Virus record (IMG/VR): IMGVR_UViG_3300037487_000317
Coordinates: 1-28,529 of that record
Source of the DNA: a virus
Reading direction: 5' to 3' (one strand)
Length of the DNA stretch: 28,529 nucleotides
Every line of letters begins with the position of its first letter. The stretch's first letter is position 1. Positions 9,637 through 28,529 of the stretch are shown here, one piece after another. A program made the position numbers and the translations under genes. The notes below the pieces were generated by a model. The model saw only the letters and a list, made by a program, of their open reading frames with translations. It had not been told where the DNA came from and did not search any database.

Positions 9637-12143
9637 TGGCCCTGATTACCCAAGCGATCCCAAACCTTATTGGTGGCGTTAGCCAGCAGTCTCCGGCTGT
9701 CCGCAGTAGTAATCAGTGTGAGACTATGGAGAACGCTTTCCCCAGCGCCATTGAAGGGCTGATCAAGCGGCCTCCTTCAGTGAAGATCAGCGAGGTGCGG
9801 AAGCAGGCCGACAACGCCCTTCTTTCTCTTGCCAGCGAATCTGAAGGCAAGCCTCACATGATCATTCGGGACATTGCAGAGAAGTACATCTGCTTGATCC
9901 GACCTGACGAGATCCATGTCTACAACCTTGATGGAACACGCCAAACGGTTTACTACGACACTGGTGCAAAAGATTACCTGACTGGGGGAACTAGAGACAC
10001 CCTGAAGGCATTGACGATTGCTGACCTCACCTTTGTGACGAACACGGCAACGTCAAACAACTCGACTGTAGTTGCAATGGCTGCGGACACGACCACCAGC
10101 ATCAACTATGACCGGATTGCTTTGGTGTTCATCAAGCAAGACAACTACGCTCGTGAAACCAAGATCACGCTGCTCAATTCAGCTGGAAACGGTACGGATA
10201 CATATACCCACACAAGTCCCCATACCACTGGTGCAAATAACGACATTGGTACAAACCATGTTGCAACCATATTGGCTGGGTTAATCAATGGTCAACAGAA
10301 CTACACCGCAGTTGCTGTTGACGGTGTAATCAAGATTACCCGAAATACCAACTTCACCATCTCTGTAGAAGACGATTTCGGTGGTCAGGGTGCGGTGATC
10401 ATTCGAGACCAAGTTCAACGCTTTGAGGATCTCCCATCATCAGCTCCTAATGGCCACGTTGTTCGAGTCCTCGGGGCTCCTGAGTCTGGCATCGATGATT
10501 ACTATGTGACGTTTGAAGCAGAGAACGGAACTTTCTCCAAAGGTATCTGGCGCGAAACTGTTGCTCCGGCAATCAAGTACAAGTTCAACTACGCAACGAT
10601 GCCCCATATTCTGATTCGTCAGAGTAACGGCACGTTCATGTTCAAGAAGGCTGATGGAACGACTCCTGCAAGCAATGTGCCAGCAGGGGCTAACTACTCA
10701 GCGTTCAAATGGGCCGAGCGTTCAGTAGGTGATTTGGAGACCAACAGCGATCCCACCTTTGTGGGAGACCGCATCACTAACATGGTGCTGTTCAAGAACC
10801 GCCTTGGCTTTCTTAGTGGTGAAAACATCATCCTGAGTGAAGCTTCGCAGTTCTTCAACTTCTGGCGCACCACAACTCTGGATCTTCCAGACTCGGATCC
10901 AATCGACATCTCAAGCAGTAGTCAGAAAATTAGCACCATGAAGTCTGGTGTTGTCTTCAACACTGAGTTGATTCTGTTTACCGAGTCCACTCAGCTGGTA
11001 CTCCGTGGCGGGGAGATCCTGAGTCCAAAGAGCGTCTCGTTGCTGCCTATTGGTGACTACGAGTCGTATGCAGACATTCAACCTGTGTCCTCCGGTTTGT
11101 CTGTCTTCTTTACCTACAACCGTGGTGGTGGGTTTGCTGGCATTCGCGAATTGATCCCACAACCAAACATTGATGGTTCTTATGTCATCAATGGTCTTAG
11201 CGATCTGGTTCCTAATTACATCGTCGGTAAGCCAGTGACCATTGCTTCAACAACTCAAGAAGACATGATGGCCGCAGTGAGCGACGGAGACTTGTACATC
11301 TACAAGTATCTCCGAACTCAAGAACAGTCTCTGCAATCTGCATGGTTCAAGTTCACTTTCCCTGATGTGGCCACAGGTGGTAAAGCCAAAGTAATCTGGG
11401 CTGAGTTTGTTGATTCCTACTTGTATCTTCTGACGTTGCGTAACACTGCAAAGAACCCAGTTCTTGAACGTATGCGCTTTGGCGTAGATCAAACAGACGC
11501 AGATACTGTGGCTGGAGTCAATTGGCTTACCCACTTAGATGCTCGTCAGTACTTTGCATCAGGGACTGGAACTTACAACAGCGGTACAGGAGTGACTACT
11601 TGGACTCTTGCAAAGCCGTATTCGTACAGCGCAACCCTGAGTCAGATCTACACCACTAACGGACTGCGGATCAACGCTTCGGCGGGAACTTCGTACAACT
11701 CCACAACTGACGCAGCTGGCACAATCTCCGCACTAGGCAACTACAGCACTACAGCTGTTTGGATTGGCTATAAGTACGAGATGCTCTACCAGTTCTCTAC
11801 GCTGTGGTTGCCTTCTCGCACTGCTGGTGGAATGGCTGCTTTACAAACCGGACGATACCAGTTGAAGAACATGAATCTTCTGTACGAGGACACCTCGTTC
11901 TTCAAGGTTCAAGTAACTGTGGGGGCAGATCAATCTCAATACGAATACCCATACACAGGCAACATCCTTGGGTCTTCTGTGTTGAATCAGATCTACTTGA
12001 ATCGGGGCTCTTTCCGTTTCCCCATCTATGGAAAGAACTCAGAGACCACAGTCAAGATCATCAACGACACACCTTTGCCGTGTAAGATTGTCAGTGCGGA
12101 AGTCGAAGCCGACTACACCGACCGCGCACAGAGGTTTGCATGA
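9636..12143 (+). CDS. Tail tubular protein B / nozzle (T7 gp12-like)
   Basis: This 835-residue protein (T7 gp12 has 794) forms the tail nozzle. The N-terminus MALITQAIPNLIGGVSQQSP and the region IEGLIKRPPSV are family signatures. FKNRLGFLSGENIILSEASQFFNFW in the middle is nearly identical to T7 gp12, and LPNAPNG-like SSAPNGHVVRVLG with YYVTFEAENG also fits. The C-terminal part contains GRYQLKNMNLLYEDTSFFKVQV and FRFPIYGKNSE. It shares a one-base overlap with the gp11-like gene and a four-base ATGA overlap with the next gene. Confidence 0.98.
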   Translation: MALITQAIPNLIGGVSQQSPAVRSSNQCETMENAFPSAIEGLIKRPPSVKISEVRKQADNALLSLASESEGKPHMIIRDIAEKYICLIRPDEIHVYNLDGTRQTVYYDTGAKDYLTGGTRDTLKALTIADLTFVTNTATSNNSTVVAMAADTTTSINYDRIALVFIKQDNYARETKITLLNSAGNGTDTYTHTSPHTTGANNDIGTNHVATILAGLINGQQNYTAVAVDGVIKITRNTNFTISVEDDFGGQGAVIIRDQVQRFEDLPSSAPNGHVVRVLGAPESGIDDYYVTFEAENGTFSKGIWRETVAPAIKYKFNYATMPHILIRQSNGTFMFKKADGTTPASNVPAGANYSAFKWAERSVGDLETNSDPTFVGDRITNMVLFKNRLGFLSGENIILSEASQFFNFWRTTTLDLPDSDPIDISSSSQKISTMKSGVVFNTELILFTESTQLVLRGGEILSPKSVSLLPIGDYESYADIQPVSSGLSVFFTYNRGGGFAGIRELIPQPNIDGSYVINGLSDLVPNYIVGKPVTIASTTQEDMMAAVSDGDLYIYKYLRTQEQSLQSAWFKFTFPDVATGGKAKVIWAEFVDSYLYLLTLRNTAKNPVLERMRFGVDQTDADTVAGVNWLTHLDARQYFASGTGTYNSGTGVTTWTLAKPYSYSATLSQIYTTNGLRINASAGTSYNSTTDAAGTISALGNYSTTAVWIGYKYEMLYQFSTLWLPSRTAGGMAALQTGRYQLKNMNLLYEDTSFFKVQVTVGADQSQYEYPYTGNILGSSVLNQIYLNRGSFRFPIYGKNSETTVKIINDTPLPCKIVSAEVEADYTDRAQRFA

Positions 12144-12613
12144 TTGAGACTAGACTGGCTCACCAGCACGACTGTTCCATCTTGGCCAAGCGACTGAGAC
12201 AAGCTGATCTCGATGAGATTCAAGCAGCATCAGGCGTAACGCCCCAGCTAGCCCTGCGGAGAGGATTAGAACACTCAGCAGAGTGTTACACCATTATTCG
12301 CCCAGAGGCCGTCTACGAGCCTTTGGCTATGTTTGGTGTGGTCTCCATGGACCAAAACCCAGCTGTTGGTCAGGTGTGGTTTTTAGGATCTGACGAGATT
12401 AAGACTCACTCGATGGAGTTTCTAAGGAAGTCCAAAGGGTGGATCGAGAACTTCCACGCTGGCTACCCAGTTCTCTACAACAACATCGACGCTCGGAACA
12501 CTGTGCATATCAAGTGGCTTCAGTGGCTGGGCTTCCAATTCATCAATGAACTTCATAACTACGGATACGAAGGACGAACCTTCTACCACTTCGTGAGGAT
12601 GCACCATGTGTGA
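12140..12613 (+). CDS. T7 gp13-like protein with GNAT-type fold
   Basis: This 157-residue protein at the gene 13 position resembles T7 gp13 in its second half: VWFLGSDEIKTHSMEFLRKSKGWIENFHAGYPVLYNNIDARNTVHIKWLQWLGFQF. The order of strands and the N-x-x-H-I-K-W-L-Q-x-L-G-F motif are typical of acetyltransferase-like (GNAT) phage proteins. T7 gp13 is needed for proper virion morphogenesis; a catalytic acetyl transfer has not been established for it. The start overlaps the nozzle stop (ATGA) and the end overlaps the gp14-like gene by 8 bases. Confidence 0.88.
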   Translation: MIETRLAHQHDCSILAKRLRQADLDEIQAASGVTPQLALRRGLEHSAECYTIIRPEAVYEPLAMFGVVSMDQNPAVGQVWFLGSDEIKTHSMEFLRKSKGWIENFHAGYPVLYNNIDARNTVHIKWLQWLGFQFINELHNYGYEGRTFYHFVRMHHV

Positions 12614-13247
12614 AGCTGTAACAGTAGGACTTATCGTTGGCGGCTTAAGTGCCGCATCTTCGGTAGCCGGACAAGCCGCTGCTTCTTCTCAGCAAAATAA
12701 GTATCTACGAAGCCAAGGAAAGGCTGGAGATGAGAACTACCGCAAGACTGTAGAAGCAGTACAGAAGGACATTGGGCTTCAAACCGACACGCTTGTCGCA
12801 CAGCAGATGGAAACCATTGCCCAGCAAAAGCAGCAACTTCAAAACATTACTTTAGATGCTCGTTCTGCTTCCTCGGCGTATACAGCACTCCAAGCCGAGA
12901 CTGGAGCTGAGGGACGTACTGTTCAAATGGTGCATGATCAGTTTGAACGGGAAGTGCTGAACTTTACTTCGGCTACCACACGCAACATCACAAACTACAC
13001 AGCGCAGTTGAATCGAGAAGCTTCATCGATTTATGCTCGCGGTCAGTCCATTATCAATAGTGGATATCCAGCTCCACTACCTCCATTCCAAAGCGTAAAC
13101 TTTGCCTCAAGCATTATGAGTGGAGCTGCTACAGGAATCGGGGCGGGTATTTCGGCCTATTCTGCACTTCAAGCCCCAAATGTTGGCGGAGGAACTTCAG
13201 GAGGAACTACTTCTAATCTTCCTTACGCCGCCCGAGCAGGAGTCTAA
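12606..13247 (+). CDS. Internal virion protein (T7 gp14-like)
   Basis: This 213-residue protein begins MCEAVTVGLIVGGLSAASSVAGQAAA, like the Met-Cys and hydrophobic start of T7 gp14. A long helical region rich in Gln and Ala (QQMETIAQQKQQLQNITLDARSAS) and a Gly/Ser/Ala-rich C-terminus follow. In T7, gp14 leaves the head with gp15 and gp16 and forms the outer-membrane pore of the ejection machine. Gene order (after gp13-like, before gp15-like) supports the assignment. GAGG is present 7-8 bases before the ATG. Confidence 0.92.
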   Translation: MCEAVTVGLIVGGLSAASSVAGQAAASSQQNKYLRSQGKAGDENYRKTVEAVQKDIGLQTDTLVAQQMETIAQQKQQLQNITLDARSASSAYTALQAETGAEGRTVQMVHDQFEREVLNFTSATTRNITNYTAQLNREASSIYARGQSIINSGYPAPLPPFQSVNFASSIMSGAATGIGAGISAYSALQAPNVGGGTSGGTTSNLPYAARAGV

Positions 13248-13250
13248 ACC

Positions 13251-15929
13251 ATGGCAAAGCAACGACCAACCCTTGGAACCTTTGCGTCTCCTACCTCACA
13301 ACTGGTTCAGCCGATCCAAGAACAAGCTACTCCGCTTAATGAGCAAGCAATTCGGGATGCTTACTCGTTTGCTGACTCTTTCAGTGAGTTGTCCCAAGCA
13401 ATGGGATCGCTCTATATCAATCTGAGGAAGCAGCAAAATGATGAGTATGTTCGCGAAGGCCGACAAGCTGTTCTTAGCAGTCGAAAGACCTATGCGGATC
13501 TTGAGCGTGAAGGAGCTATTCGTCCAGCGGAAAATCCGTGGATGGCTCTTGGAGCGCAGCAGGCTTCCGGAATCCTTGAAGCTGCCTCTGCCTCCAATGA
13601 GTTCCGGGGGCTTGTCGCGCAGAAAGCCGCAGAGAACCCAGAGTTCCTTGACGATCCTAAGCACTTTGATGCGCTAGCAGCTTCTTACGCACAGCAGAAA
13701 TCCCAGCAGTACGCAAACAGTCCCTACCTGTCTGAAGCTTTCTTCGAGAATTTCAACCAGTCAGTAATCAAGCTTCAACAAGATAACTTTGAAGCCATTG
13801 AGGAATCTCGGTTCCAAAAGACTGTTCTAGCGGCTGACGCAAAAGTCCGGCTTGTCGTGGACAGTGTGGGGCCAAAGAGCACAGACGGCTTTGTACAGGA
13901 CATTCAATCAGCTTTTGATGAGGCAGTAGCCAACTCCGGAGGACGATCTTCGGAGATCACTCAGGCATACGCCATGTCTCTGATTCAGATCATGCGTACC
14001 AACCCTGAAAAGGTTGACGAAGCTGAGATGATCTTGAAAAGCCTTAAGGCTGGAACTGGAAAGCTGATCGATACCTCTGCTGCCCAGAGTCTGCTTATTA
14101 AGTATGGAGCCGAGATCGAGAATCAACGCGAACAAGCAACGAGTAACGAAACTCGGATGCTGTTTGATGTTCAACGAGACCTTTTAAAGAAGTACGAGTC
14201 TGGCGTGTTCGGTGAAGGGGAAGAAGCACATATCAAATTGGTAGACGCATTTGATCAATACGCTGCCCGAACAGCTGGGAACATTTCTATTAGTGCGGCT
14301 AAGACTGAGGCAGAACGAGATTACCTGTATCGAAAAGCTCAAGCGATTGATAATGCACAGGCTGCTGCTCGTGAAGAGGCGTTGAAGCAAGCCGCTGAAC
14401 TTGATAAGCAAGCTAAAGCTGATCGGGATGAAGCTTTAGTGCAAATTCAATCTGCTAAACAACTTGAACTAGGCTCGAAAGTTAGAAGCGGGGTTCCAGT
14501 TGAAACCGCCATTGATGAAATGGATTCACTTCTCGGAAACGCTCAATTTGGATATACACCAGAAGACCGATTGAAGTACAAAAAGTCTTCTGAAGAATAC
14601 TTTAGAAGTCAAGCTTCTGAGTATCAAAAGCAACTTGGAGCACTAAAGACAACCAATGCTCGTGGTCGAATCATTGCAACTGCGGATGCACAGATCAGTA
14701 ATTTCATTAGAGAGACAATCGATAATCCGATGCAAGGAACGGCGCAGCCTATAAACATTGCAGCCCTTCAAGCGTCGGCTGACCGAAGCTTTAGGGCCGC
14801 AGGACTTACAGAAGAGCAGCGTAAAAACGCAAAGGATCAGCTGTACTTTGATTTGACCTCAAATGCCAAAACACAGCTACAAAGTCAGCTGATGAGAACT
14901 CCAGCAAACGGGGGGATCGCTCCGATTGATCTTCCAACGCTTGAGCCTAGTTCTACAGATACTCCTCCGATTCGCAAGTACAAAGAAAACGCCCGTGCGG
15001 TGGAAATGTCCGCAATGATTTCCATTGATGAAGCATTTGGGGAAGAAGACACAATCGCTGAGTTGAAGAACATTGCAGAAACAATGCTGACTCCAGAAAT
15101 TATCGAACAAGGAGTTTCTTACAAAGTAGCGGATCTTTGGAGAGCATGGAAGGCCAGTAAGAACGGCTATTTCAGGGAAGGTGTGTTCGGAACTGCCGCA
15201 GGAAAGCGCCTTGAAGTCTTGTTCAACAATGTCGATGTCAAAGTAGGACCAACTGCCGATTTTGACAACGCACTGGCAGATGCAGTAGCTGAATACTCCG
15301 TTTCCAGAGGCTCGGCAATCACCGATTGGACAAACATCACTGACGCATCTAGTGAGGCTCAGGGTCGTTTCAACAATCAAATGAAATCGGTACTCGAAGG
15401 CTTAAAAATTAGCCATCCCGATTCTCGAAAACTTTTGGAAAATTTCTACGGATCTGAAGTCATCCGTATTTTCCAGACCAGTCTGGAGCACCCTCTAAAC
15501 CTTTCTAGAGCCATCACAGAAGCAGCAGTTTCGGTCAAAGATCAAGTTGTTGTTATTGACGGTTCTTTCTTGTTCCGCGAAGGAAAAATTGGGCTAGATG
15601 CTTACAACGAAGATCACTTCAGAAACCTCGCAAGGTTCTACGCGCCCGGAGTTGAAAATCCTGTCTTCTTCCCCATCAGCAAGTTGGCAAATGGAAACCA
15701 CAACTACGCGCTGAGAGACCAAAACGGAAACATCGTTCAGAACCGTGTGTTCACTCTCGAAGACATTGCTGGCCCTGAAGCATTGAAGCGCTCTTTCTTC
15801 TACGAAAAAACTAAGGGAACAGAGCAGCGTTATTCTGAAACCCGTGGATTGAAGTTCGTTGACTATTCGGCCACATTTGAAGCGCAAAACAAGCGGATGC
15901 GGGATCTCCTGACACCCACTACGGAGTAA
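13251..15929 (+). CDS. Internal virion protein (T7 gp15-like)
   Basis: This 892-residue protein (T7 gp15 has 747) occupies the gene 15 position. It is largely helical and hydrophilic without a signal peptide, with a marked charged coiled-coil-like part around residues 365-405 (AAREEALKQAAELDKQAKAD). The N-terminus RPTLGTFASPTSQLVQPIQE and the region DAYSFADSFSELSQAMGSLY resemble other gp15-type proteins. In T7 it forms the periplasmic part of the DNA ejection tunnel with gp16. AGGAG lies 8 bases before the ATG. The identification rests on position, size and composition more than on a catalytic motif. Confidence 0.88.
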   Translation: MAKQRPTLGTFASPTSQLVQPIQEQATPLNEQAIRDAYSFADSFSELSQAMGSLYINLRKQQNDEYVREGRQAVLSSRKTYADLEREGAIRPAENPWMALGAQQASGILEAASASNEFRGLVAQKAAENPEFLDDPKHFDALAASYAQQKSQQYANSPYLSEAFFENFNQSVIKLQQDNFEAIEESRFQKTVLAADAKVRLVVDSVGPKSTDGFVQDIQSAFDEAVANSGGRSSEITQAYAMSLIQIMRTNPEKVDEAEMILKSLKAGTGKLIDTSAAQSLLIKYGAEIENQREQATSNETRMLFDVQRDLLKKYESGVFGEGEEAHIKLVDAFDQYAARTAGNISISAAKTEAERDYLYRKAQAIDNAQAAAREEALKQAAELDKQAKADRDEALVQIQSAKQLELGSKVRSGVPVETAIDEMDSLLGNAQFGYTPEDRLKYKKSSEEYFRSQASEYQKQLGALKTTNARGRIIATADAQISNFIRETIDNPMQGTAQPINIAALQASADRSFRAAGLTEEQRKNAKDQLYFDLTSNAKTQLQSQLMRTPANGGIAPIDLPTLEPSSTDTPPIRKYKENARAVEMSAMISIDEAFGEEDTIAELKNIAETMLTPEIIEQGVSYKVADLWRAWKASKNGYFREGVFGTAAGKRLEVLFNNVDVKVGPTADFDNALADAVAEYSVSRGSAITDWTNITDASSEAQGRFNNQMKSVLEGLKISHPDSRKLLENFYGSEVIRIFQTSLEHPLNLSRAITEAAVSVKDQVVVIDGSFLFREGKIGLDAYNEDHFRNLARFYAPGVENPVFFPISKLANGNHNYALRDQNGNIVQNRVFTLEDIAGPEALKRSFFYEKTKGTEQRYSETRGLKFVDYSATFEAQNKRMRDLLTPTTE

Positions 15930-24165: not shown

Positions 24166-24375
24166 ATGGACGAACTCTTCAAACAACTACACAACGCCCT
24201 AGGGGCAGAACTGCTAAACCGGATTCAATCCGGCGAATGCAGTCCTGCTGACTTGAATGTGGCTAGGCAGTTCCTAAAAGACAACGGCATCGATGCCAAC
24301 ATGAAGGCATCTGCTCCTCTCTTGAACCTTGCAAAGGTTATGCCGTTTGATCCCGACGAGGAGGAAGCCGCATGA
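24166..24375 (+). CDS. terS: Terminase small subunit (T7 gp18-like)
   Basis: This 69-residue protein lies directly before TerL, overlapping it by ATGA. ELFKQLHNALGAELLNRIQSGECSPADLNVARQFLKDNGIDAN resembles T7 gp18 and other short podoviral small terminases, with the pattern of a helical DNA-recognition domain followed by a short acidic tail (DPDEEEAA). It would recognise the phage genome and bring TerL to it. AAGGAAA precedes the ATG. It is slightly shorter than T7 gp18 (89). Confidence 0.92.
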   Translation: MDELFKQLHNALGAELLNRIQSGECSPADLNVARQFLKDNGIDANMKASAPLLNLAKVMPFDPDEEEAA

Positions 24376-26021
24376 GCGAGGCACAGGACAAGCTCAAGGA
24401 CTTCCGCAACTTTGTATGTCTTGCGTGGGATCACCTTGGGCTTCCTGAGCCTACGCCTGTGCAGCTGGACATTGCCCGTTATCTGCAAAAGGGACCACGC
24501 CGTCGCGTCATTCAGGCGTTCCGTGGCGTTGGAAAGAGTTGGCTGACAAGTGCATATGTAGTCTGGAGACTGCTGCACGACCCCACACTCAATGTGCTGG
24601 TGGTCTCTGCATCCAAGCAACGAGCAGATGACTTCAGTACATTCACCCTGCGGTTGATCCACGAGATCCCGTTCTGCCAACATCTGAAGCCAAAAGACAA
24701 TCAGCGCAACAGCAAGATTGCCTTTGATGTCGGCCCTGCTCCTCCAAGTCAAGCTCCCAGTGTTGTCTCCAAGGGAATCACCAGCCAGATCACTGGTAGT
24801 CGTGGTGATTTGATCATTGCGGACGATGTCGAGTCTCTCAACAACTCGGCTACCGCCATTATGCGCGACAAGCTGTTGGCAAGCACGGCTGAGTTTGAGG
24901 CAGTCCTGAAGCCCGGTGGGGAGATCATCTACCTAGGTACGCCTCAGACAGAGCAAAGCATTTACCATGGGCTGGCTGAAAAAGGATATGTGACCCGCAT
25001 CTGGCCAGCTAGGTTCCCAGAGGAGCGTCTCAAGACCGCCTTTGGAGAGAAACTGGCTCCGGTGCTTCGTACTGGCAAAGTTGGAGACCCAACCGATCCT
25101 AAGCGTTTCGATGCTATGGATCTGATGGAGCGAGAAGCGTCATATGGACGCACTGGGTTTGCGCTCCAGTTCATGCTGGACTCGACCCTCAGCGATGCTG
25201 ATCGCTACCCGTTGAAGATCAACGACCTGATCGTGTTTGGATTGAATCCGGAGAATGCTCCGGAGAAGCCCATCTGGGCAATGAATCCAAACAACATCGT
25301 CAAGGATCTGCCCTGTGTCGGTTTCAACGGAGATCGCTTCTACGCACCCATGGAGATCCAAGGACGCTGGATTCCGTATGAGGGTGGCATCATGGCCATC
25401 GATCCTGCGGGCCGTGGTGGCGACGAGACGGCTTACTGCGTGGTCAAGATGCTGAATGGCTTCTTGTATGTGACTGCCGCAGGAGGCATTGCTGGGGGCT
25501 ACGGCGAAGAGGTCATGAAGAAGCTGACCAGTGTGGCCAAGAACCACAAGGTCAATCTGATCCTAGTGGAGTCCAACTTCGGTGACGGAATGTTCACTGA
25601 GCTGTTGAAGCCGTACCTGCTCCGTGAGTACCCATGTACTACCGAAGAAGTCAGGCACAACATCCAGAAGGAACGCCGAATCATTGACACTCTTGAACCA
25701 GTCTTGTGTCAGCACAGGCTGGTCTTGGATGTCGGAGTCATCAAAAACGATTACGAATCCACCAAAGCATATACCAGTGAGAAAGCTCTTCACTTTTCTC
25801 TTATCTGGCAACTCAGTCGAATTAGCAGGGCCAAAGGTTCTCTGTACCACGATGACCGTCTTGACTGTCTGAGCATGGCCGTTGGGTTCTGGGCTGACAA
25901 GATGGCTCAAGATGCAGACCGCAAGATGGTCAACTTCAGGGAACAGGCGATGCAAAAAGAACTAGAGAGGTTTATGGAACACGCTGTAGGCCATCGTCCC
26001 AAGGAGGACACATGGATGTAG
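24372..26021 (+). CDS. terL: Terminase large subunit (T7 gp19-like)
   Basis: This 549-residue DNA packaging motor has an N-terminal ATPase and C-terminal RNase H-like nuclease. The Walker A-type loop is FRGVGKS (50-56, K55). Walker B is LIIADDVE with D151/D152 and E154. The nuclease acidic residues are seen in AIDPAGRGGDE (D344), LVESNFGDGMF (E400) and YHDDRLDCLSMAVGF (D494, D495, D498). It cleaves concatemers and pumps DNA through the portal. Length is close to T7 gp19 (586). The start overlaps TerS, and AAGGAGG near its 3' end serves the following gene. Confidence 0.98.
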   Translation: MSEAQDKLKDFRNFVCLAWDHLGLPEPTPVQLDIARYLQKGPRRRVIQAFRGVGKSWLTSAYVVWRLLHDPTLNVLVVSASKQRADDFSTFTLRLIHEIPFCQHLKPKDNQRNSKIAFDVGPAPPSQAPSVVSKGITSQITGSRGDLIIADDVESLNNSATAIMRDKLLASTAEFEAVLKPGGEIIYLGTPQTEQSIYHGLAEKGYVTRIWPARFPEERLKTAFGEKLAPVLRTGKVGDPTDPKRFDAMDLMEREASYGRTGFALQFMLDSTLSDADRYPLKINDLIVFGLNPENAPEKPIWAMNPNNIVKDLPCVGFNGDRFYAPMEIQGRWIPYEGGIMAIDPAGRGGDETAYCVVKMLNGFLYVTAAGGIAGGYGEEVMKKLTSVAKNHKVNLILVESNFGDGMFTELLKPYLLREYPCTTEEVRHNIQKERRIIDTLEPVLCQHRLVLDVGVIKNDYESTKAYTSEKALHFSLIWQLSRISRAKGSLYHDDRLDCLSMAVGFWADKMAQDADRKMVNFREQAMQKELERFMEHAVGHRPKEDTWM

Positions 26022-27003: not shown

Positions 27004-27365
27004 GCTCCCCCTATATCCTTATATATGGTCACTACAGTATTCCTGTAGTTTCCTATAAGCTTACTGAAGGTGACTTTGGTGAATTCTCCTTCTTTCCTTA
27101 TCCTAGAATCACAGTGAATACAGGGTTAAAGAAAGAAGTAGAAACTAGTACTATTCTCCATGAGGTCATGGAGATGATCTCTGAGATCAATGGGCTCAAC
27201 CTTGATGAGTCTCAGATCCGTACTCTGGAGGTTGGTCTCATGTCTGTCTTCCTTCAGAATCCTTGGCTGGTTGACCGTCTTCGGAAAAGCCAGCAGGAGC
27301 TCATTACAGACCATCTTGATTGGCCCCCTAGTCAGACCCTACCGGACAGTCCGGAAGCCTTGTAG
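27000..27365 (+). CDS. Phage metallopeptidase-like protein with HExxE motif
   Basis: The frame opens with TTG at 27000, overlapping the HNH stop and preceded by GGAGG at 26991-26995. The 121-residue product has the plan of small ImmA/IrrE-like phage proteins: an N-terminal beta part (ILIYGHYSIPVVSYKL, GEFSFFPYPRITVN), then TSTILHEVMEMISEINGLNLDE with H54-E55 and E58, and a helical end (IRTLEVGLMSVFLQNP). The standard motif is HExxH; here the fifth position is Glu, a variant seen in some phage relatives. Zinc binding might therefore be altered or lost. The substrate is unknown. The reading frame is rich in T and A near its start, unlike neighbours. Confidence 0.78.
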   Translation: MSSPYILIYGHYSIPVVSYKLTEGDFGEFSFFPYPRITVNTGLKKEVETSTILHEVMEMISEINGLNLDESQIRTLEVGLMSVFLQNPWLVDRLRKSQQELITDHLDWPPSQTLPDSPEAL

Positions 27366-27394
27366 TCAATTCTAGCCCTATTAGAAAGAAGACC

Positions 27395-27508
27395 ATGAAG
27401 AAGAAGCGTTCTGAACTCAAGATCCATGGCAAGAAGCACGAAAAAGGTGAGTCTGCCAAGTTTGAAAAGAAGGAAAAGAAGATGAAGGGTTACAAAGAGA
27501 AGTACTAG
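27395..27508 (+). CDS. Lys-rich miniprotein
   Basis: An ATG at 27395 begins a 37-residue frame ending in TAG at 27506-27508: MKKKRSELKIHGKKHEKGES, then an almost pure Lys/Glu helix and a GYKEKY end. An AGAAAG/GAAG purine stretch (27382-27390) is a modest ribosome site. About 45% of residues are Lys. It follows the other small basic genes and has no stop or bias suggesting chance, but is too short to classify. It could bind DNA or RNA, or be packaged. It is the last convincing gene of the late region. Confidence 0.6.
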   Translation: MKKKRSELKIHGKKHEKGESAKFEKKEKKMKGYKEKY

Positions 27509-27548
27509 GGTCGAATGTTTGAAGAAAAAATCTGAGAGGGTTTGATAA

Positions 27549-27646
27549 GCTGTTTGAAATTGAAATACCCCCTATACACCCAGTATTAGGATTTACCAGA
27601 AGTTACCTATCGCCTGTTAGAAATTACCGACGCCATTTCAAACAGC
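27549..27646 (+). repeat. 12-base perfect inverted repeat enclosing a possible structured RNA
   Basis: GCTGTTTGAAAT at 27549-27560 is exactly complementary to ATTTCAAACAGC at 27635-27646. Inside, AATAC (27564-27568) can pair with GTATT (27583-27587). Just downstream, TCTGAAA (27661-27667) pairs with TTTCAGA (27679-27685). Together this could fold as a 98-base stem-closed RNA followed by a hairpin. Confidence 0.6.
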
Positions 27647-28079
27647 AATGAGCAGGCAACTCTGAAAATGATTTGGAATTTCAGATGGGTTTGGGGAAAT
27701 AAAGAGGATTCCTTTGGCGTGCCAGTAGTGCAGCGGGAGGGGTGAGCCTATGGCTTTACCTTCCCGTTTGTTCATCTCTATCACATCCAAGACAACCAAG
27801 ACATCCTCTTGTCTACGCTGTCTCCATTGTTGTGCAATGCTGTCTGCATATGTCTCTGTCTTACTGTACTTCTGTCTTCAATAAACACACCAACACAATC
27901 TACTATGGTTCAGCCCGCCGATAACAATGTCCATCTTTGTTCACTCTGCGAGACACCTTCGGTTTCTCGCGCTCTTCCCTTTGTTGTGTAAGCAAGACCA
28001 TCAGCAGTTGTAATGCCCATCATCAACAGGAGCTCACTGCGTTCGCTCTTGGATTACTTTCGCTGCGCTTCGCTTGCGA

Positions 28080-28112
28080 CCAAAGAGAAGAGACTCTTTC
28101 TCTTCTCTCTGG
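28080..28112 (+). terminator. Purine/pyrimidine hairpin, possible terminator
   Basis: AGAGAAGAG at 28084-28092 pairs perfectly with CTCTTCTCT at 28100-28108 around ACTCTTT. After one A-C mismatch, CCA/TGG extends the stem. A pyrimidine-rich stretch (CTCATCTCTATCTTCTCC) follows rather than a pure T run. It lies downstream of all late genes and before the last ORF, so it may end late transcription; this is inference. Confidence 0.45.
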
Positions 28113-28157
28113 ACTCTCATCTCTATCTTCTCCCCCATGATGTCAGATTGACTCCTT

Positions 28158-28347
28158 CCGATAACGCTGCGAACCACGGCCCCAGATTATCGGACGATAA
28201 GCCTAGGGAAATGCATTTCCTTAGGGTCGAAACTTTCTATCTAACTTTCGCCAAACTTGGCAAGAATACTTGCACCGGCTCCAGTTTCTGCTACGATTCC
28301 CAAGTCAGCGGAACGATTCCGCGCGACCCGCACCGAACGGAATTCGG
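28158..28347 (+). repeat. Dense array of six inverted repeats upstream of the last ORF
   Basis: Consecutive inverted repeats are CCGATAA/TTATCGG (28158-28164 with 28187-28193), the near-perfect 24-base palindrome at 28202-28225 centred on ATGCAT with one G-T pair, GCCAA/TTGGC (28250-28261), GCAAG/CTTGC (28260-28273), GCGGAA/TTCCGC (28308-28322) and CCGAA/TTCGG (28333-28347). They end 24 bases before the ATG at 28372. Such density could mark operators, an origin, a genome end or a folded mRNA leader. Confidence 0.6.
28270..28297 (+). promoter_or_regulatory. Possible sigma70-type promoter for the last ORF
   Basis: TTGCAC at 28270-28275 and TACGAT at 28292-28297 are 16 bases apart, with TGC just before the second element (extended -10 form, TGCTACGAT). 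Each hexamer has four matches to consensus. A start near 28304 would give a leader of about 68 bases before the ATG at 28372. Early genes of T7-like phages are read by host polymerase, which fits the position. Confidence 0.3.
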
Positions 28348-28371
28348 AGAGACAAACGAAAGGTTAGAACA

Positions 28372-28529
28372 ATGTCAAAGACCACGAACACGAACGCCGC
28401 AGCCGAGACCATCACGGAACAAGTCCTTGCACGTCGCCGCCAAGCAGCACCAGTCACCGCACCTATCACGGAAACGACGGAAGAAACGACAGTGTACAAG
28501 CGAACCGCCGCAGACATCGCCGCCGCTAA
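28372..28529 (+). CDS. Thr/Ala-rich hypothetical protein, 3' end outside window
   Basis: The ATG at 28372 has AAAGG 8 bases upstream. The frame stays open through the window end (the final TAA letters are not in frame), giving at least 52 residues. The visible part is MSKTTNTNAAAETITEQVLA, then a basic RRRQ, and a Thr/Glu-rich stretch ending TVYKRTAADIAAA. It looks partly disordered with one helix. Codon use favours ACG and GCC, more GC-rich than the late genes. As the first gene after the presumed late/early junction it may be an early protein. The family is not recognised. Confidence 0.65.
   Translation, partial: MSKTTNTNAAAETITEQVLARRRQAAPVTAPITETTEETTVYKRTAADIAAA

Follow-up and report, generated by a model that had tools for sequence, protein, structure and literature searches.

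The 24-base palindrome CCTAGGGAAATGCATTTCCTTAGG, located at positions 28202-28225 in the junction between the late and early genes of an uncultured T7-like phage, is probably an operator, one of a dispersed set of sites that would be read by the product of the first early gene (gene 1). The case for this assignment is comparative: palindromes occupy the same place in related phages, are repeated along their early regions and differ in sequence from phage to phage in concert with gene 1.

Results and discussion

Genome context and the late/early junction

The analysed stretch, referred to below as the window, corresponds to a linear virus record of 28.5 kb that covers the late part of a T7-like genome, with genes for a family-A DNA polymerase, the portal, the capsid and T7-type terminase subunits (terminase, 24372-26021). 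Small genes follow 3' of the terminase to about 27365. The junction beyond them is mostly non-coding and leads to the first early gene, which begins at 28372 on the + strand (MSKTTNTNAAAETITEQ..., 28372-28529). The contig stops 155 bases past the ATG of gene 1, inside the gene, and since it ends so near the start of the early region only a single copy of the palindrome is seen in the window; the missing early region would be expected to hold further copies. The relatives' contigs L004, L017 and L018 also stop within gene 1, as expected if this gene is hypervariable among co-occurring strains.

Named phages are distant, with terminases at most 60% identical, and IMG/VR contains relatives with terminase identities of 85-97%. 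Many of the relatives are partial contigs. The group is uncultured and found in many environmental metagenomes. A scan of prokaryotic genomes gave a relative (L187, terminase 79% identical) whose contig stops before the junction. No homologues of the four integrases queried, of MarR or of cI were detected in G001-G003, L168 or the window. Any role in immunity would thus be without an evident lysogenic cycle; other kinds of integrase or repressor may be present.

The left edge of the junction is marked by a conserved end-of-late-region block (..CTGAGAGGGTTTGA; 27508-27547, + strand) common to relatives of all palindrome classes. The conserved ATCTGAGAGGGTTTGATA block at the end of the late region was seen in the window (27508-27560) and in L003-L028, and in many relatives it is followed by a C-run/G-run hairpin (CCCCCCGTGGGGG).

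The recurrence of CGATAA at 27919, 28159 and 28195, and of TTATCG at 28187, had been pointed out in the original prediction, and these positions were correct. The motifs belong to TTATCGG/CCGATAA elements within 28156-28200 (28158-28164 on the - strand, 28187-28193 on the + strand and CGATAA at 28195-28200), with a further CCGATAA at 27918-27924 on the - strand. In relatives belonging to several palindrome classes, TTATCGG copies gather at the late/early junction: G002 has four in a stretch of 113 bases there and none elsewhere in 42 kb, and G003 has three. The junction repeats lie within a conserved CTCCCCGTTTGTTATCGGAC block and are independent of the palindrome class. TTATCGG is an element separate from the palindrome, perhaps serving packaging, as a terminal-repeat signal, or replication.

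A host RNA polymerase promoter is predicted at 28270-28297 on the + strand, comprising TTGCAC (28270-28275), a 16-base spacer and TACGAT (28292-28297). A promoter search listed none in the window, whose own hexamers match the consensus weakly. When 13 sequences were aligned from the palindrome to the first early ATG, TTG (28270-28272) was invariant, as were the A and the final T of the second hexamer, so a conserved sigma70-type early promoter is predicted upstream of gene 1. The palindrome ends 44 bases upstream of this predicted promoter and therefore lies outside the early leader. In L016 the copy nearest the junction sits in the gene-1 leader and not upstream of the promoter. In the window the ATG of gene 1 is preceded by a ribosome-site-like GAAAGG.

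Inverted repeats upstream of gene 1

Six short inverted repeats within about 190 bases had been claimed for this region, and all of them were found in 28156-28347 by direct reading. The arms TCCGATAA and TTATCGGA (28157-28164 and 28187-28194) pair at 8 of 8 positions across a 22-base loop, and TATCGGACGATA (28188-28199) overlaps the TTATCGGA arm. The palindrome comes next, with 11 of its 12 pairs matched and the odd one being G-T, just as had been described; further copies would have the form (C)CTARGGAAATGCATTTCCTTAG. It is followed by two overlapping repeats around the -35 hexamer, GCCAAACTTGGC (28250-28261) and GCAAGAATACTTGC (28260-28273), the latter having partial counterparts in some relatives. 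The last two repeats, GCGGAACGATTCCGC (28308-28322) and CCGAACGGAATTCGG (28333-28347), are hairpins on the + strand of the predicted gene-1 leader; the leader hairpins of other relatives vary in sequence.

The palindrome is the only 24-mer of the window with at least 11 of 12 pairs. A comparable 24-mer arose in 9% of whole-window shuffles and in none of 5000 shuffles of the 190-base region. The region contains five non-overlapping hairpins (arm of at least 5, loop of at most 8) against 1.3 in shuffles, 0.4% of which reach five. Because five hairpins are likewise present in two further stretches of 190 bases in the window, and because the RNA-folding check suggested earlier found the whole region unremarkable (z -1.7, not significant), the density of hairpins is only mildly unusual, and the palindrome stands out through its counterparts in relatives. 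An Rfam search gave no match above chance. The reading as an intrinsic terminator was not supported, no GC-rich stem followed by a T run being found in 27300-28529.

Palindrome classes in related phages

Nearly all relatives whose contigs reach the junction carry a palindrome there. The conservation proposed as a check in the original prediction was thus confirmed for position, and the sequence differs, falling into at least six classes among the relatives. Class A (AATCCC-N6-GGGATT) was found in L003, L004, L015, L018, L021, L022, L024, L168 and L177, class B (GTCCAA-N3-TTGGAC) in G002 (= L017/L034/L035), L016, L020, L023 and L172-L175, class C (AGTCTCA-N4-TGAGACT) in G003, L028/L011 and L167, and class D (AGTGAAAC-N2/3-GTTTCACT) in G001 (= L009) and L008. 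L170 and L176 each have a type of their own (AGTGAAATGCATTTCACT and AGTAAAACGCGTTTTACT, respectively), and so does the window (CCTARGGAAATGCATTTCCTTAGG). Exact DNA searches with the early junction or the palindrome of the window yielded no sibling having the same set of palindromes, the last of them giving mostly chance matches and none that was related; in no relative was the exact palindrome of the window found repeated. The nearest relative palindrome is that of L170, the core GAAATGCATTTC being identical in both.

Where the early region was sequenced, the same palindrome is repeated 5-18 times per genome (G001 7, G002 18, G003 9, L168 6 and L024 5 copies). Dinucleotide shuffles yielded at most 2-4 copies (maximum 4 in 20 shuffles each for G002 and G003), and four other T7-like phages, AP013544, LUZ100, CRP-227 and ProddE, have at most two. 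The copies lie almost wholly in the early region, mostly in short gaps ahead of the start codons of early genes, the farthest up to 10 kb from the junction. In G002, an almost closed genome with about 141 bases of overlap between its ends, the late genes have no copies apart from two in the junction. Such copies could have been phage RNA polymerase promoters, a reading that was rejected as they stop at the early/middle region and none precedes the late genes. In four genomes 19 of the 36 early copies have a ribosome-site-like motif, an ATG and an open frame in the next 50 bases, compared with 11-15% of random positions, and many copies are situated between a stop codon and a ribosome site or just before internal starts.

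At homologous sites the class is swapped in place between conserved flanks. The clearest case is a site just before an internal ATG within the primase-helicase ORF, where all genomes have similar flanks around a palindrome whose type (A, B, C, D or that of L170) depends on the genome. This internal ATG resembles the start of a short helicase form (L171:10566-10601, L168:6852-6890 and homologues). Occasional mixing of classes was seen, with an A-like site among the B sites of L173, one A copy in G001 and one B copy in L170, and fits recombination between classes. In the early gaps of G001-G003 and L024 a second repeated block, roughly GTTCC then GAGAACCA, stands directly upstream of many palindromes. 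The half-sites GGGAAAT of the window and GTGAAAC of class D resemble the Noc and parS half-sites in reversed order, a likeness that may be coincidence and carries no weight in the argument.

The palindrome class follows gene 1

Mapping the classes onto the terminase DNA tree takes 8 changes, about the shuffled mean of 8.3, and L015 (class A) and L016 (class B) are about 99% identical in terminase. The RNA polymerase tree likewise separates members of class B. For the gene-1 tree 3 changes suffice for the four classes, which is the minimum and was reached by none of 200 shuffles. The link between gene 1 and class is a correlation in 12 sequences, and two palindrome copies, lying on either side of gene 1, might be transferred along with it. 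Variability is far higher in gene 1 than in the terminase, the gene-1 products having 16-78% identity to that of L024. The segments of the L024 protein that best separate the classes are residues 96-110 and 128-141, the former being the putative recognition helix of a ParB-like domain according to its place in the structural model. Pairs of gene 1 and palindrome class offer a direct way of testing for binding specificity.

The truncated gene 1 of the window is like that of L008/L009 in position and N-terminus, with a weak match (E 0.038). Gene 1 belongs to no Pfam or PHROG family and has no relative in 50,697 phage records. Structures were predicted from an alignment of 12-13 rows for the L009 and L024 products (pLDDT 77.6 and 81.9, respectively). 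Both models consist of helices throughout, the N-terminus being of low confidence and the C-terminal helix long. The two proteins are only about 17% identical, and both match the DNA-binding domain of Caulobacter ParB bound to parS (6s6h) over 110/121 residues, with Z scores of 5.7 and 6.8, within the range where helical bundles match by chance. Further fold matches were KorB with its operator (1r71, Z 4.5) and Noc (7nfu, Z 4.4), and the RuBisCO factor Raf1 scored Z 8.4 with one model. A profile search of gene 1 among solved structures gave no ParB match, only designed helical repeats, which were taken as compositional. No Pfam match to the ParBc N-terminal CTP-binding domain was obtained for gene 1, whose N-terminus of about 30-50 residues is of low confidence in both models. 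The resemblance of the modelled gene-1 product to the DNA-binding domain of ParB/KorB is suggestive only.

Proposed regulation and alternative explanations

The gene-1 product would be the most likely reader of the palindromes, and its C-terminal helix would suit dimerisation. Gene 1 would be transcribed first by host RNA polymerase, and its dimer would then bind the palindromes and repress or road-block early transcription, including that of gene 1 itself and of the phage RNA polymerase gene, and so set the early-to-late switch. An incoming phage of the same class would be repressed and one of another class would not. Binding, repression and self-recognition by gene 1 are in this scheme suppositions drawn from the sequences. 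More tentatively, and with less confidence than the operator assignment itself, the genome-wide palindrome set and the hypervariable gene 1, with its ParB/KorB-like predicted fold and no CTPase domain, may constitute a self-recognition system in phages lacking a recognisable lysogeny module, in which all sites of a genome would change specificity together from one phage to a near-identical one, as would be the case if the class decides which co-infecting phages are repressed. T7-like phages are the standard example of simple, timed, lytic transcription, and an operator set with a rapidly switching cognate protein would give them a further level of control and perhaps a part in competition between phages.

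Of the four explanations offered in the original prediction, an operator cluster thus fared best, for the palindrome, through the dispersed same-sequence copies before early genes and their co-variation with gene 1. A leader folding into serial hairpins was correct insofar as a leader hairpin exists at 28308-28322, but it is ordinary and the palindrome is upstream of the predicted promoter. A reading in which the palindromes act as RNA hairpins in early mRNAs and a co-varying phage RNA-binding protein governs processing, mRNA stability or translation is unlikely. The many copies between stop codons and ribosome sites or before internal starts would suit it, as would the fixed orientation of some classes (class D AGC, L241); its best point is the one-base difference in half-site spacing in G001 and L241, a change better tolerated by a loop than by a DNA dyad. 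Against this, most genomes, the window included, have one copy upstream of the predicted early promoter, and DNA-binding domains are what the gene-1 models resemble. The centre of class A is itself symmetric (AAATTT in 15 copies), and centres are found in both orientations (TTG 19, CAA 16), those of class B among them. Among 104 sites, the asymmetric arm pairs on the sense strand were G.T in 14 cases, A.C in 9 and other in 11; there is no bias to RNA wobble pairs and therefore no sign of selection for RNA pairing.

Roles in DNA maintenance were weighed in the same way. The palindromes are improbable as partition- or origin-like sites (iterons or a parS-like centromere) through which gene 1 would act in replication or in the positioning of DNA rather than in transcription. 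The ParB-like fold of the models speaks for such a role, and the class D half-site GTGAAAC/GTTTCAC, which equals the parS half-site in reversed order, is a lead only and was not used as evidence; but no ParA-like gene or CTPase domain was noticed, the position ahead of start codons is the one expected for gene control, and the copies are spread over 10 kb rather than clustered. No support was found for a replication origin as originally suggested. The fourth suggestion, a genome terminus, was right about the site and about the CGATAA/TTATCGG elements being junction-specific. That the palindrome itself serves DNA packaging, as a place of cutting or a hairpin end within a concatemer junction or terminal repeat, is highly improbable: it does lie in the non-coding late/early junction, the site of T7-like terminal repeats, adjoined by the TTATCGG repeats, and in LUZ100 and ProddE terminal repeats are annotated between the terminase and early genes, but the relatives' copies reach deep into the early region and the L016 copy in the gene-1 leader does not fit. 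A terminus or origin role is thus unlikely for the palindrome, and the junction itself may have one. Finally, a chance palindrome with a merely coincidental counterpart in relatives is extremely improbable, since the frequency of equally good 24-mers in whole-window shuffles and the single copy in the window are outweighed by its absence from region shuffles, by a position matching that of the relatives' palindromes and by the core shared with L170.

Comparison with known systems

The layout described here, with one palindrome repeated along the early genes, was also seen in L241, a distant T7-like contig (terminase 44%) assigned to the bin of a Neomarinimicrobiota genome. A long non-coding stretch after its terminase is followed by a strong sigma70-type promoter, a perfect match to the TTGACA-N17-TATAAT type read from the sequence at 11168-11197, and downstream of it eight copies of (A)GTGTCCCGAGGGGACA stand before or inside early genes (11241-13510). 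Its first gene has no relative in 50,697 phage records and is not detectably related to gene 1. The layout is therefore either old or has arisen more than once.

The RNase III hairpins of T7 early mRNA are similar in being hairpin-forming sequences between early genes. They are not known to have a single palindrome in common or a phage protein of their own that reads them. Related T7-like phages that are temperate (LUZ100, CRP phages) have a MarR-type regulator presumed to work close to the RNA polymerase gene (PMC10134795). LUZ100, CRP-227 and AP013544 possess an integrase and lack repeated palindromes, whereas neither MarR nor integrase homologues were found in the group of the window. The SAS/ESAS of Cluster K mycobacteriophages are repeated sequences just before start codons, some with inverted repeats (PMC3203893). 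SAS is an asymmetric GGGATAGGAGCCC-like 13-mer conserved in the cluster, whereas here sequence and symmetry differ and the palindrome switches class even from one phage to a near-identical one.

The dimer of KorB binds palindromic OB operators at several places of one replicon, plasmid RK2 (PMC11790492). KorB, Noc and ParB are comparable to the system described here in the dispersed palindromic sites, and may be so in the predicted fold of the gene-1 DNA-binding region. They differ in that the gene-1 products have no detected CTP-binding N-terminal domain and are unrelated to them in sequence family by profile search, and in that the sites here change sequence between close relatives.

The stoperators of Cluster A phages (L5, Bxb1) are alike in being many short sites in gaps between genes, with a motif that varies from phage to phage along with the cognate DNA-binding protein (PMC6550527), a repressor that is monomeric (PMC9283540). 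In the relatives of the window, sites were likewise found in short gaps near starts and stops, and motif and protein co-vary in the 12 sequences, the cognate role of gene 1 being a proposal. Stoperators are, however, asymmetric, mostly in one orientation and found in temperate phages, whereas the sites here are palindromes in both orientations, confined to the early region of phages in which no integrase was found, with a predicted ParB/KorB-like fold for the putative regulator. The best reading is a dispersed operator set with a co-varying regulator, stoperator-like in layout; it was filed neither with stoperators, because these are asymmetric, nor with KorB operators, because the CTP-binding domain of ParB/KorB was not detected.
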